A DNA stretch of 64,000 bases from Myxococcota bacterium (GTDB taxonomy: Bacteria; Myxococcota_A; Bradymonadia; UBA7976; UBA1532), in contig CAUJDF010000079.1 of assembly GCA_963169045.1 (NCBI GenBank), forward strand, positions 124,001 through 188,000. The letters are read 5' to 3'. Both the position numbers and the translations under genes were made by a program. Positions 4,342 through 25,198 of the stretch are shown one piece after another. Under the pieces are notes generated by a model that was not told where the DNA came from, did not search any database, and saw nothing but the letters and a program-made list of their open reading frames with translations. Position 1 is the first letter of the stretch; each line of letters begins with the position of its first letter.

Positions 4342-5272
<931 letters not shown>

Positions 5273-5276
<4 letters not shown>

Positions 5277-6271
5277 TCGCGCTCCAGGAGCTTCTCGACG
5301 GTGACCCCCACCTGGGATCCCGCGCCGCCGAACACGGAGCCGGGCTCGCGCGCCCCGAAGCGCTGCCTCGCCAGCGCGTAGGCGCGGTCGGGGAGCGGCA
5401 CGTAGCCGACCTCGGCGGCGAGGCTCCCCGCGTGGCCCAGGTAGAAATCGACGAAGCGCGTCACCTCGTCCCGCTCCGCGGCGGCCTTGCTCACATAGAT
5501 GAAGATCGGGCGGGAGAGCGGCTGGTAGGTGCCATCGACGATGGTCTGTTCGCTCGGTGTGATCGCGACGCCGTCGCCGGGATCCACGGGGACGAGCTTC
5601 AGCTTGTCCCGGTTCTCGGCGTAGTAGGCGAACCCGAAGAAGCCCAGCGCGCCGGGGTCCGTGGAGACGCCCTGGACGAGGACGTTGTCGTCCTCGCTCG
5701 AGGTGTAGTCACCGCGGCTCGCGTGCTCCCGCCCGACGACCGCCTTGGTGAAGTAGTCGTAGGTGCCCGAGTCGACGCCGGCGCCGAACAGATGGATCTC
5801 ACGGTCGGGCCAGTCGGGGCGGACGTCGCTCCACTTGCGGACTTTGTCCTGCGCCTCGGGCGCCCAGAGGATCGCGAGCTCGGCGATCGTGATCGTGTCG
5901 ACCCAGTCGTTGTCCTTGTTCACCACGATGGCGATGCCGTCGTAGGCCACTGGCAGTTCGATGAATTCAATCGACTTTTCGCCGCAGGCCTTCACCTCCG
6001 AGGGCTTGATCGGCCGCGAGGCGCCGGCGACGGCGACCTCGCCGCGGCAGAACTTCTCGAAGCCGCCGCCGGTGCCGGAGACGCCGATCGTGACCCGGGC
6101 GCCGCCTCCCTTCTGCGACTCCTCGGCCTGGAACTCCTCGGCGACGGCCTCGCTGATGGGGAAGACCGTGCTCGAGCCGTCGATGGCGACGGGGGCGCCG
6201 TCCGGTGCCTTCCGGCCGCAGCCGGCCAGCGCGATCACGGCGGCGATGGCGAAGCGCCGTGTGTTCGTCAT
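5273..6271 (-). CDS. pstS: PstS, periplasmic phosphate-binding lipoprotein
   Basis: PstS is the solute receptor that delivers phosphate to PstCA. The 332-residue precursor starts [18 protein letters not shown], a lipoprotein signal with cleavage before Cys18, so the receptor is likely membrane-anchored rather than free. Phosphate-cradle segments are visible: [18 protein letters not shown] near residue 30, [16 protein letters not shown] near 64 and [15 protein letters not shown] near 165. The start at 6271 was chosen for its lipobox distance and the GAGGAG ribosome site about 7 nt upstream. First gene of the pst operon, preceded by a Pho-box promoter. Confidence 0.96.
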
Positions 6272-19445: not shown

Positions 19446-21029
<1,584 letters not shown>

Positions 21030-21047: not shown

Positions 21048-21093
21048 GTTCGATACGAACGGGCGACCCCCGCCGGGCGCGAATGCCCGATTC
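21048..21093 (+). promoter_or_regulatory. Paired inverted repeats, candidate RtcR binding sites
   Basis: Two short palindromes lie upstream of the sigma54 promoter: GTTCG-ATA-CGAAC (21048-21060) and GAAT-GCCCG-ATTC (21081-21093). Their centres are 33 bp apart, about three helical turns, so both would face the same side of DNA. They lie roughly 20-65 bp before the -24 element, a suitable enhancer position for an AAA+ activator. The sequences differ from each other, so assignment to RtcR is inference from position. Confidence 0.45.
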
Positions 21094-21109
21094 TCCGCGT
21101 CTCACGGGG

Positions 21110-21126
21110 TTGGCACGGCGGCTGCT
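21110..21126 (+). promoter_or_regulatory. Sigma54 (-24/-12) promoter of the RNA-repair operon
   Basis: TTGGCACG-GCGG-CTGCT matches the sigma54 consensus TTGGCACG-N4-TTGCW nearly perfectly. The GG (21112-21113) and GC (21124-21125) dinucleotides are at the required 12-nt distance, and the -24 half is exact. Transcription would begin near 21137, about 33 nt before the rsr ATG. Its location between divergent rtcR and rsr fits RtcR control. Confidence 0.9.
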
Positions 21127-21169: not shown

Positions 21170-22708
21170 ATGAACCGCCACCTGTTCCAGTGCGACACGG
21201 TCCCGCCCGCCGACGCCATCAACGCGCACGGCGCCCCGGCCTACGCGTTCTCGCGCAAGCACGCGCTGGCGCAGTACGCGGCGACCGGCTGCCTGACGGA
21301 CACGTACTACGCGACGGCCGAGATGCAGCTCGACGCGGTGCTCGCGCTCTGCGCGGGCCTGCCGGCGGAGTTCATCGCGAAGACGGCGGTCTGGTGCCGC
21401 GAGCGCGGCTTCATGAAGGACCTGCCGGCGCTGCTCGTCGCGCTGCTCACGGTCGAGGATCCGGCGCTCTGCGAGCGGGTGTTCGACCGCGTGATCGACG
21501 ACGGGAAGATGCTGCGCAACTTCGTGCAGGTGATGCGCTCGGGCCACGTCGGCCGCGGGTCGCTCGCCTCGATGCCGAAGCGCCTCGTGCGCCGGTGGCT
21601 CGAGCGCCGCACGGACGAGCAGGTCTTCCGCGCGTCGATCGGCGCCGACCCGTCGCTGGCGGACGTGGTGAAGATGGCGCACCCGCGCCCGACGACGGCC
21701 TCGCGCCGCGCGCTGTACGGCTGGCTCCTGGGCCGCCCGTACGACGTGGACGCGCTGCCGGCCATCGTGCGCGCGTACGAGGACTACAAGCGCGATCCGC
21801 GCGGGGCGGCGCCCGACGTGCCGTTCCTGATGCTCACGGCGCTGCCGCTGGGCCCCGGCGAGTGGCGGCAGATCGCGCGCCGCTCGACGTGGACGCAGCT
21901 GCGCATGAACCTGAACACGTTCGCCCGCCACGGCGTGTTCCGCGACAAGAAGCTGGTGAAGGACCTGGCGGCCCGCCTGCGCAACCCGGAGGAGATCCTG
22001 CGGGCGAAGGTGCTGCCGTATCAGCTGCTCACGGCGTACCTGGCGGCGGGCGCCGACGTGCCGACGGCGATCCGCGACGCGCTGCACGACGCGATGGAGG
22101 TCGCGACGCGCAACGTGCCGGAGATCGAGGGGAAGGTGTACGTGTGCCCGGACGTGTCCGGCTCGATGCACTCGCCCGTGACCGGGTACCGGGCGCGCGG
22201 GCAGACGTCGAAGGCGCGCTGTGTCGACGTGGCGGCCCTCGTGGCGGCCTCGGTCCTGCGGCGCAACCCGACGGCGGAGGTGATCCCGTTCGAGCACCGG
22301 GTGGTCGACGTCCCGCTGCGCGCGAAGTACCCGGTGCTGGTGAACGCGCAGAAGCTGGCGGCGATCGGCGGCGGCGGGACGTCGTGCAGCGCGCCGCTCG
22401 CGCTGCTCAACGAGCGCGGGGCGCGCGGCGACCTCGTGATCTTCGTCTCGGACAACGAGTCGTGGGTCGACTGGCGGCGTGCGCAGGGGACGGCGATGGC
22501 GCACGAGTGGCAGCGCTTCAAGGAGCGCAACCCGCGGGCGAAGCTGGTGTGCATCGACATCCAGCCGAACCGCACGTCGCAGCACCGCGAGGCCGAGGAC
22601 GTGCTGAACGTCGGCGGCTTCTCCGACGCCGTGTTCGAGGTCGTCGCCGCGTTCGCGCGTCATCGCGGCCGCTCGTGGGTCGACGTGATCGACGCCACGG
22701 TGATCTGA
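21170..22708 (+). CDS. rsr: Rsr, Ro60-like TROVE/vWA Y-RNA-binding protein
   Basis: This 512-residue orthologue of Ro60 forms a ring that binds Y RNAs and the 3' ends of misfolded RNAs, and in bacteria works with exonucleases in RNA quality control. Residues about 10-325 are the HEAT-like TROVE ring (MKDLPALLVALLTVEDPALCERVFDRVIDDGKMLRNFVQVMRSG is typical in style). Residues about 325-512 are a von Willebrand A domain with an intact metal site: CPDVSGSMHS (DxSGS), the Thr in GGGGTSCSAPL and the Asp in IFVSDNESW. GGAGAG precedes the ATG. It is first gene after the sigma54 promoter and is followed directly by two Y-RNA-like elements. Confidence 0.93.
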   Translation: MNRHLFQCDTVPPADAINAHGAPAYAFSRKHALAQYAATGCLTDTYYATAEMQLDAVLALCAGLPAEFIAKTAVWCRERGFMKDLPALLVALLTVEDPALCERVFDRVIDDGKMLRNFVQVMRSGHVGRGSLASMPKRLVRRWLERRTDEQVFRASIGADPSLADVVKMAHPRPTTASRRALYGWLLGRPYDVDALPAIVRAYEDYKRDPRGAAPDVPFLMLTALPLGPGEWRQIARRSTWTQLRMNLNTFARHGVFRDKKLVKDLAARLRNPEEILRAKVLPYQLLTAYLAAGADVPTAIRDALHDAMEVATRNVPEIEGKVYVCPDVSGSMHSPVTGYRARGQTSKARCVDVAALVAASVLRRNPTAEVIPFEHRVVDVPLRAKYPVLVNAQKLAAIGGGGTSCSAPLALLNERGARGDLVIFVSDNESWVDWRRAQGTAMAHEWQRFKERNPRAKLVCIDIQPNRTSQHREAEDVLNVGGFSDAVFEVVAAFARHRGRSWVDVIDATVI

Positions 22709-22711
22709 TCG

Positions 22712-22835
22712 GGCCCCGTGCTCGTGCTCGTGCTCCCGCTCGGCTGAATGCAGGCCGGGAGTACATCTTCAACATGTCGCCTCTCGGCCGATCGCCTCGT
22801 CGGTCGGGCGCGAGCACGAGCACGAGCACGGGGCC
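22712..22835 (+). ncRNA. Y-RNA-like non-coding RNA 1
   Basis: Starts 4 nt after the rsr stop. The ends form a perfect 24-bp helix (22712-22735 with 22812-22835) built from GGCCCC plus three GTGCTC units; the long terminal stem is the Ro-binding part of Y RNAs. Inside is a 7-bp arm CTCGGCT / GGCCGGG (22739-22745 with 22753-22759) with 7-nt loop GAATGCA. Next comes an anticodon-like arm, ACAT-CTTCAAC-ATGT, with a 7-nt loop. This internal part resembles the tRNA-like module of bacterial YrlA RNAs. It shares arm and loop sequence with the second element. No open reading frame of note is present. Confidence 0.82.
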
Positions 22836-22836
22836 G

Positions 22837-22950
22837 CGGTGTGTTTCCGAAGATGGCTGCCCGGCCGAATGCTGGCCGGGAGTACATTTGGTCTGTGTCC
22901 CTCTCGTCCGAACCCTCGTCGGCCGGGCAGGCATCGTCGCGAACACATCG
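22837..22950 (+). ncRNA. Y-RNA-like non-coding RNA 2
   Basis: Begins 2 nt after the first element and ends just before the rtcB ribosome site. The ends form a helix of 29 bp interrupted by three single mismatches: 22837-22846 with 22941-22950, CGA/TCG, GATG/CATC and finally CTGCCCGGCCGA (22857-22868) with TCGGCCGGGCAG (22919-22930). The internal arm CCCGGCC / GGCCGGG with loop GAATGCT (22860-22880) and the following ACAT-TTGGTCT-GTGT arm match element 1, with pair-preserving changes. The inner end of the terminal helix competes with the CCCGGCC arm, so only one of the two can form fully. Confidence 0.8.
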
Positions 22951-22967
22951 AAGGGTGGGAGGGTGTC

Positions 22968-24185
22968 ATGTACGAGGTCATCGATGCCGGCCAGGGCCGG
23001 TTCGTCAAGGCGTGGGTCCGCGGCGTCGCGATGGACGACGAGTCCCGCGAGCAGCTGCGGCGGGTGGCGCGCCTCCCCTTCGTCCAGGGGTGGGTGGCGG
23101 CGATGCCCGACGTGCACGCGGGGAAGGGGTCGACGATCGGGAGCGTGATCCCGACGGCCGGCGCGATCATCCCGGCGGCCGTCGGTGTGGATCTCGGCTG
23201 CGGGATGGCCGCGGTGCGCACGTCGCTGCGCGCCGACCTGCTGCCCGACGACCTCTTGCCGCTGCGGCTGGCGATCGAGGCGGCGGTGCCGCACGGCCGG
23301 TCGCACAACGGCGATCCGGCGAACGACGTCGGCGGGTGGCGCGACGCGCCCTCGGCGGGGGCGCAGTCGGCGTGGGCGGCGATCCACGAGGGGTACGCGC
23401 GCATCGTCGCGAAGCACCCGAAGATCGGCCGCGGCCCGACGCTGCAGCACCTCGGGACGCTCGGGACGGGGAACCACTTCGTCGAGGTGTGCACGGACGA
23501 GGACGACCGCGTCTGGTTCATGCTGCACTCGGGGTCGCGCGGCGTGGGGAACCGCGTCGGCACGTACTTCATCGAGCGCGCCCAGGAGGAGATGCGGCGC
23601 TGGTTCGTGAACCTGCCCGACCGCGACCTGGCGTACCTCGCCGAGGGGTCGCAGTACTTCGGCGACTATGTCGAGGCGCTGCAGTGGGCGCAGGACTTCG
23701 CGCTGTGGAACCGGCGCGTGATGATGGACGCCGTCGTCGCCGCCGCCCGGTCCGTGCTGCCGCCGTTCGAGCTGACCGACGAGGCCGTGCAGTGCCACCA
23801 CAACTACGTGGCGCGCGAGCGGCACCTCGACCGCAACGTGTTCGTGACGCGCAAGGGCGCGGTGCGCGCGCGCAAGGGCGACCTGGGGATCATCCCCGGC
23901 TCGATGGGCGCGCGCTCGTTCATCGTGCGCGGCCTGGGGAACGACGACGCCTTCCACTCGTGCAGCCACGGCGCGGGCCGGGCGATGTCGCGCACCGAGG
24001 CGAAGCGCCGCTTCACGCTCGAGGACCACGCGAAGGCGACGGCGGGCATCGAGTGTCGCAAGGACGCCGAGGTGATCGACGAGACGCCGATGGCCTACAA
24101 GCCGATCGACGCCGTGATGGAGGCGCAGCGGGACCTCGTGGAGGTCGTGCACACGCTGCGGCAGGTCGTATGCGTGAAGGGATAG
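22968..24185 (+). CDS. rtcB: RtcB, GTP-dependent RNA-splicing ligase
   Basis: RtcB joins RNA 2',3'-cyclic phosphate or 3'-phosphate ends to 5'-OH ends through a His-GMP intermediate. The 405-residue protein keeps the two-metal site: D75 and C78 in GVDLGCGM, N169/H170 in GTGNHFVE, H187 in LHSGSRG and H278 in CHHNYV. The guanylylated histidine is at about 334 in CSHGAGRAMSR. Length is typical of the short bacterial RtcB group. GGGAGGG lies 5 nt before the ATG, just outside the helix of Y-RNA-like element 2. Its end overlaps rtcA by 16 nt. Confidence 0.97.
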   Translation: MYEVIDAGQGRFVKAWVRGVAMDDESREQLRRVARLPFVQGWVAAMPDVHAGKGSTIGSVIPTAGAIIPAAVGVDLGCGMAAVRTSLRADLLPDDLLPLRLAIEAAVPHGRSHNGDPANDVGGWRDAPSAGAQSAWAAIHEGYARIVAKHPKIGRGPTLQHLGTLGTGNHFVEVCTDEDDRVWFMLHSGSRGVGNRVGTYFIERAQEEMRRWFVNLPDRDLAYLAEGSQYFGDYVEALQWAQDFALWNRRVMMDAVVAAARSVLPPFELTDEAVQCHHNYVARERHLDRNVFVTRKGAVRARKGDLGIIPGSMGARSFIVRGLGNDDAFHSCSHGAGRAMSRTEAKRRFTLEDHAKATAGIECRKDAEVIDETPMAYKPIDAVMEAQRDLVEVVHTLRQVVCVKG

Positions 24186-25198
24186 TCAGCATCGACGGCG
24201 CCGAGGGCGAGGGCGGGGGCCAGATCCTGCGCACGAGCGTCGGCCTGGCCCTCGTCACCGGCACGGCGGTGCGCGTGGACCGCATCCGCGCGCGCCGGCC
24301 GAAGCCGGGCCTCATGCGCCAGCACCTGACGGCGGTGCGCGCGGCGGCGGAGGTGTCGGGCGCGACCCTCGAGGGCGCCGAGCCCGGCTCCACGTCGCTG
24401 ACCCTGCGTCCGGGCGCGGTGCGCGGCGGCGAGTACCGCTTCTCGGTCGGCACCGCCGGCAGCGCGACGCTCGTGCTGCAGACGGTGCTGCCGGCGCTGC
24501 TCACCGCGCCGCGGCCGTCGCGCCTCGTCTTCGAGGGCGGGACGCACAACCCGTGGGCGCCGACGTTCGACCACCTCGATCGCGCCTTCCTGCCGCTGCT
24601 GCGGCGCATGGGGGCGCGCGTCGAGGCGCGGCTCGAGCGTCATGGCTTCCACCCCGCGGGCGGCGGCCGCATCGTCGTCGAGATCGAGCCGATCGAGCGC
24701 CTCGCGCCGCTCTGCCTGCTCGAGCGCGGCGACGTCCGGTCCCACGCGGCGACGGCCATCCTGTCGGCGCTGCCCTACGACATCGCGAAGCGGGAGCTCG
24801 CGGTCCTGCGCGAGCGATTCCCCTGGGATCCCGAGTGCTTCCGGCCGCTGATGGTCAAGGACGCGGCGGGGCCGGGCAACGTGGTGCAGATCACGGTGGC
24901 CTGCGAGCACGTCACCGAGGTCTTCGCGTCGTTCGGGGAGCGCGGGCTGCCGGCGGAGCGGGTCGCCGCGCAGGCGGCGGACGAGTGCGCGGCGTGGCTC
25001 GCGGCGGGGGTGCCCGTGGGCGCGCACCTGGCGGACCAGCTCCTGCTGCCGCTGGCGCTCGCCGGCGGCGGGTCGTTCCGCACCGTCGCGCCCACGGGCC
25101 ACACGCGCACCCAGGCCGCGCTCGTGCCGCGCTTCATCGATGTGCGCGTCGACCTCCGCCGCGACGACGACGGCCAGTGGACCGTGATCGTCGAATAG
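24170..25198 (+). CDS. rtcA: RtcA, RNA 3'-terminal phosphate cyclase
   Basis: RtcA uses ATP to turn RNA 3'-phosphates into 2',3'-cyclic phosphates, which feed RtcB. The 342-residue protein opens with the family's GEGGGQILRTSVGLALVTG and has the FEGGTHNPWAPTFDHL and GFHPAGGGRI signatures. The C-terminal catalytic His that becomes adenylylated is in TGHTRTQAALVPRF near residue 315. ATG 24170 lies within the rtcB end (16-nt overlap), so the two enzymes are translationally coupled. The stop is followed by 64 nt before the next gene. Confidence 0.96.
   Translation: MREGIVSIDGAEGEGGGQILRTSVGLALVTGTAVRVDRIRARRPKPGLMRQHLTAVRAAAEVSGATLEGAEPGSTSLTLRPGAVRGGEYRFSVGTAGSATLVLQTVLPALLTAPRPSRLVFEGGTHNPWAPTFDHLDRAFLPLLRRMGARVEARLERHGFHPAGGGRIVVEIEPIERLAPLCLLERGDVRSHAATAILSALPYDIAKRELAVLRERFPWDPECFRPLMVKDAAGPGNVVQITVACEHVTEVFASFGERGLPAERVAAQAADECAAWLAAGVPVGAHLADQLLLPLALAGGGSFRTVAPTGHTRTQAALVPRFIDVRVDLRRDDDGQWTVIVE

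Follow-up and report, generated by a model that had tools for sequence, protein, structure and literature searches.

Two hairpins between the Ro60 and rtcB genes of a myxobacterial RNA-repair operon as likely tandem short Y RNAs

In the bacteria characterised so far, Rsr holds Y RNAs by their lower stem, and the Y RNAs serve both as gates to Rsr and as recruiters of PNPase (PMC4726728). The PNPase-binding part of YrlA is its tRNA-like domain (PMC8394870). A described parallel for the locus considered here is the Salmonella rsr–yrlBA–rtcBA operon, which lies next to a divergent rtcR gene and has a sigma-54 promoter (PMC7790460; PMC9879122). The Y RNA of D. radiodurans has a lower stem bound by Rsr and tethers PNPase (Ro60–Y RNA–PNPase, RYPER). 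Vertebrate Y RNAs are likewise hairpins with paired ends and bind Ro60, but bacterial Y RNAs have been described as highly divergent and as not homologous to them (PMC4726728).

The 64-kb stretch of Myxococcota DNA analysed here (the window) has the same gene order as the Salmonella operon, with rtcR divergent from rsr–Y RNA–Y RNA–rtcB–rtcA. The best overall explanation of the two hairpins between rsr and rtcB, held with high confidence, is that they are tandem short (YrlB-like) bacterial Y RNAs in an RNA-repair operon, each forming one long hairpin and likely acting as a gate of Ro60. The kind of RNA is already known, and the two elements are new members of it. The genes and the promoter-like site of the locus are the following.

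19446–21029, reverse strand: divergent rtcR gene for a sigma-54 activator (NCBIfam RNA_repair_RtcR, 805 bits; cut-off 650)
21111–21125, forward strand: sigma-54 promoter-like site TGGCACGGCGGCTGC, between rtcR and rsr, upstream of rsr
21170–22708, forward strand: Ro60/Rsr protein gene, the presumed binding partner (Pfam vWA_Ro60, 4.3e-15)
22968–24185, forward strand: rtcB RNA ligase gene (Pfam RtcB, 3.3e-126; start codon picked from the sequence)
24182–25198, forward strand: rtcA RNA 3'-phosphate cyclase gene (NCBIfam, 3.5e-131, above cut-off)

The Ro60 gene product matches D. radiodurans Rsr (2NVO) at 8.7e-13 over residues 18–497, most of its length. TGGCACGGCGGCTGC is the sole match to TGGCAC-N5-YTGC within the window. 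The divergent rtcR gene, the sigma-54 site and the downstream rtcB and rtcA genes together point to an RtcR-regulated RNA-repair operon, whose putative promoter is a consensus match only. Immediately 5' of the sigma-54-like site, at 21076–21110 between rtcR and rsr, GGGCGCGAATGCCCG...GTCTCACGGGG recalls the Y RNA letters GAATGC and GTCTC without GANTACA, and is possibly the RtcR enhancer region or a chance resemblance. The 260-nt same-strand gap between the Ro60/Rsr gene and rtcB is filled by the two hairpins, which, as expected of bacterial Y RNAs, directly follow the Ro60 gene.

A Ro60 protein search yielded 76 loci from several phyla. GAATGC...GANTACA is found directly downstream of Ro60 in most of them, often repeated and usually followed by CTTGTC or CTCGTC, and a short Y RNA adjoins Ro60 in Myxococcota, Verrucomicrobia, Planctomycetota, Ignavibacteria and Alphaproteobacteria. 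Fifty-eight short forms beside Ro60 in other genomes, with the window left out, were aligned by sequence alone (alignment A1), and a covariance model, R1, was built from A1 only. R1 matches elements 2 and 1 at full length and gives no further match in the window or, at E values up to 10, in the 9.0-Mb genome to which the window belongs; at other loci it also picks up many longer tRNA-like Y RNAs. The parts of the two elements are given below.

22712–22835, forward strand: Y RNA element 1, whole hairpin (36-nt inverted repeat, 89% complementary)
22737–22810, forward strand: element 1 conserved Y RNA core (held-out model R1, 50.4 bits, E 1.1e-10, full length)
22737–22746, forward strand: element 1 lower (outer) helix, 5' strand CGCUCGGCUG (partner 22801–22810; 10 of 10 pairs; covaries in the 58 relatives)
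22746–22751, forward strand: element 1 GAAUGC, invariant in 58 of 58 relatives
22753–22761, forward strand: element 1 inner helix, 5' strand GGCCGGGAG (partner CUCUCGGCC; 9 of 9 pairs)
22763–22777, forward strand: element 1 apical stem-loop ACAU-CUUCAAC-AUGU (in the MFE structure; U-A to G-C variation in relatives)
22781–22789, forward strand: element 1 inner helix, 3' strand CUCUCGGCC (partner GGCCGGGAG)
22796–22800, forward strand: element 1 CUCGU, 3' side of the internal loop, directly 5' of the lower helix 3' strand
22801–22810, forward strand: element 1 lower helix, 3' strand CGGUCGGGCG (partner 22737–22746; covaries in relatives)
22837–22950, forward strand: Y RNA element 2, whole hairpin (32-nt inverted repeat, 84% complementary; z -5.0)
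22858–22929, forward strand: element 2 conserved Y RNA core (held-out model R1, 54.6 bits, E 8.5e-12, full length)
22867–22872, forward strand: element 2 GAAUGC, invariant (family conservation and R1 match)
22884–22898, forward strand: element 2 apical stem-loop ACAU-UUGGUCU-GUGU (in the MFE structure)

The common fold is a two-part hairpin consisting of a lower helix, an internal loop of AAUGC and CUCGU, an inner helix, UACAU and a small apical stem, and unguided RNAalifold on A1 gives essentially the same fold as that used for the model. Element 1 folds with an MFE of -98.6 (z -10.9 against shuffled sequence). The G of its GAAUGC is paired, with C in all relatives, and AAUGC forms the 5' side of the internal loop; GAAUGC is the presumed Ro60 contact. 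CUUGU or CUCGU is kept on the other side across the family. A conserved Ro60-side stem, built of 5' and 3' parts around a GAAUGC internal loop, is present as in other bacterial Y RNAs. The inner helix, paired at 98% in relatives, ends at GGGAC/GUCUC in the family; in the window GGGAC has become GGGAG opposite CUCUC, so that the pairing is preserved. The ACAT stem that the first-pass annotation had picked out is real in a subset of the family: 15 distinct apical loops are closed by ACAU/AUGU pairing and seven by ACAG/CUGU pairing. The apical loop of other members is different. In the lower helix of element 1, an extension at 22712–22735 and 22811–22835 forms a perfect duplex of hexamer repeats (CGTGCT and CGAGCA, about three copies per arm); the doubled hexamer GTGCTCGTGCTC has no further copy in the window. 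Elements 1 and 2 are repeats of each other, sharing 29 nt at 90% and 15 nt at 93% identity at distances of 121 and 119 nt, and this repetition is not due to chance.

The lower and inner helices covary strongly across phyla. Changes on both sides occur in 14 of the 17 pairs among the 58 relatives, and the covariation score is 0.545, compared with 0.149 ± 0.012 for shuffled alignments and no more than 0.115 for slid partners. When the inferred number of changes was placed randomly on a FastTree tree, the score of 6.46 faced a null of 0.67 ± 0.19, and none of 200 randomizations was as high. The A1 relatives were selected for a paired lower helix, which biases these figures for that helix, whereas the inner helix was never selected on; in a recount of 72 RNAs chosen with motif anchors only, the five innermost lower-helix pairs are 97–100% paired. 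The earlier proposal that the two elements are functional structured RNAs is therefore borne out by strong covariation of both helices in their relatives.

At the gathering threshold, Rfam gives no match. At a loose threshold, Rfam YrlB matches both elements weakly over the full length of the model, with 24.0 bits for the core of element 2 and 19.4 bits for that of element 1, so the elements are YrlB-like and are not filed under RF02565, whose gathering cut-off of 97 bits they do not reach. Short Y RNAs at other Myxococcota loci likewise score just 28–31 bits with Rfam YrlB. Weak matches to Rfam miRNA families, far under their cut-offs, are artefacts of long hairpins. With Salmonella YrlB (RF02565) the elements have in common the operon context, GAAUGC, GGGANUACAU, the inner helix, a short apical loop and GUC ahead of the lower helix 3' strand; they differ in that the window has two copies of the short type, whose lengthened lower helices reach 36 and 32 nt. 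With YrlA (RF02553) they share the Ro60-side stem, and YrlA-type RNAs occupy the same operon position in relatives, but YrlA has a tRNA-like module that the window elements lack and that was not found in the genome. An Rsr homologue is encoded beside the two RNAs, but the module by which the D. radiodurans Y RNA tethers PNPase is missing here. The suggestion to compare the elements with YrlA led to the right RNA family, although neither element is tRNA-like.

The first-pass annotation had described a shared internal module at 22739–22898, composed of a 7-bp arm and the ACAT stem. All its letters are present: element 1 has CTCGGCT (22739–22745), the loop GAATGCA (22746–22752) and GGCCGGG (22753–22759), followed by ACAT (22763–22766), CTTCAAC and ATGT (22774–22777), and element 2 has CCCGGCC (22860–22866), the loop GAATGCT (22867–22873) and GGCCGGG (22874–22880), followed by ACAT (22884–22887), TTGGTCT and GTGT (22895–22898). 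The true unit is nevertheless larger than this range. Seven arm pairs are possible in both elements, two of them U-G in element 1, and the differences between the elements preserve pairing, but the arm is not adopted in the full-length fold, in which its strands pair elsewhere. Since the arm would join the 5' strand of the lower helix to the 5' strand of the inner helix, it excludes both helices. In the aligned homologues, covariation is far above background for the lower and inner helices and not for the arm. Across the 58 relatives the arm is not conserved above chance, with pairing in 56.4% of cells compared with 54.1% after shuffling and three pairs changed on both sides compared with 4.6. 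In 34 clusters, own arms are no more stable than cross-species chimeras (p = 0.23; 108 of 500 permutations as good); because they do not beat the chimeras, their advantage over mono-shuffled inner strands (p = 0.007) is read as a shared-motif effect. In a tree-based test, mutual information in the arm slightly exceeds the null (0.47 against 0.18, 2 of 200), whereas pairing does not. Imposing the arm on the window elements loses 11.5 and 12.4 kcal/mol relative to the Y fold, and its probability is about zero; it is best interpreted as a side effect of two neighbouring G+C-rich helices.

These results bear directly on the idea of a two-state RNA switch, in which the arm with its GAATGCA/T loop would compete with the inner helix and control the downstream rtcB gene. 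Both elements can form the arm, which gives a short 46-nt piece of element 2 its best local fold and could arise transiently during transcription; however, only the Y fold is conserved, and the switch is unsupported because the arm is unconserved, apart from the weak mutual-information excess without extra pairing, and 11–12 kcal/mol worse. A terminator-like site was looked for and none was found, and the likely rtcB ribosome-binding site (~22954–22965) lies outside the element 2 helix, leaving the switch highly improbable. Another alternative is that the elements are plain intercistronic hairpins which serve to stabilise or process the rsr–rtcB messenger and give no separate RNA product. This would fit the very long outer duplexes within the operon, which RNase III could cut, but would leave unexplained why the unpaired AAUGC and UACA are invariant in different phyla and why the same RNA is present at a locus (L080) where rtcB was not found nearby; we regard this alternative as improbable. 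The tRNA-like reading, namely a YrlA-type module with mimicry of the D-arm and T-arm, draws on the 7-nt loops and on the position beside Ro60, the usual site of tRNA-like Y RNAs. In many relatives such RNAs have a T-arm GGTTCGAATCC, an acceptor-like stem and a D-arm GGTAGCTCAG, in the part order of a circularly permuted tRNA (alignment A2), but the T-arm and D-arm consensus is absent from both elements. A model of 22 tRNA-like Y RNAs (R2) gives 83–113 bits for held-out members and only 32.3 and 25.0 bits for the window elements, Rfam YrlA (RF02553) has no match in the locus, and ARAGORN finds neither tRNA nor tmRNA in the window. The earlier tRNA-like reading of the 7-nt loops is accordingly abandoned, its probability being close to nil. 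Tandem short Y RNAs thus remain the preferred reading.

The unusual feature of the window genome is that it seems to have the short Y RNA form only and none of the tRNA-mimicking form. No tRNA-like Y RNA was found in this 95% complete draft of 109 contigs with R1, R2, Rfam YrlA or a direct pattern search, while about 70 of the 76 Ro60 loci, counted by eye, have a match of at least 55 bits to the tRNA-like model. Rfam YrlA matches in the own genome were rejected as sub-threshold: all scanned loci were at tRNA genes, and 13 of 14 control genomes also match. The best non-Y matches of R2 in the own genome and in that of the closest Ro60-bearing relative (G009) are tRNA gene arrays, and an extra GAATGC-N4-12-GANTACA match from the own-genome pattern search (C44 of G000) is unsupported by R1. 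The closest Ro60-bearing relative (G009, L080) likewise carries just one Y RNA, of the short form, and none of the tRNA-like type was found there. At L080:4583–4680, the long lower helix of this sole Y RNA is followed by a T run (GGCGGAACTTTTTT), resembling an intrinsic terminator; rtcB and rtcR were not found within the fetched stretch. At L005:4542–4649, in another myxobacterial draft, the Y RNAs next to Ro60 are likewise all non-tRNA-like, and one has an insert that is longer and different. In Nannocystis genomes (L017, L018, L019, L020 and L075; ~4530–5730), tandem runs of at least six Y RNAs, the majority tRNA-like, are found downstream of Ro60. At L003 and L004, the family members G002 and G009 have a distant Ro60-like protein (24–30% identity) with one TGA inside the matched frame; in G009 this protein is a second copy. 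A tRNA-like Y RNA elsewhere in the 95% complete genome could have been overlooked.

Ro60 binding, gating, co-induction and release from the transcript are functions that we infer for the two elements. In the most likely arrangement, the outer surface of the Ro60 ring would receive the lower helix and internal loop, while the remaining Y RNA would cover the ring entrance, so that the RNA may stabilise Ro60 and, by analogy with other Y RNAs, gate the entry of damaged or misfolded RNAs. Transcription of the operon would presumably be switched on by RtcR and sigma-54 upon build-up of broken tRNAs, as in Salmonella, and the long outer duplexes may aid the release of the Y RNAs from the operon transcript. 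Because the stem is kept and the tRNA-like part is absent, the elements are more likely to be gates or stabilisers of the Ro60 ring than PNPase tethers.

These results place two RNAs in a known family and give the short Y RNA class a structure that has been tested by covariation across phyla. A tentative extension, to which we give somewhat less than an even chance, is that Ro60 in this myxobacterial lineage works only with short Y RNAs, the tRNA-mimicking Y RNA having been lost, and with no tRNA-like PNPase tether. Chen et al. are said to have found in 2014 at least one tRNA-like Y RNA in each species; if the extension is true, the lineage would be an exception to that rule. The apparent lack of a tRNA-like Y RNA would offer a natural setting for roles of Y RNAs besides PNPase tethering.
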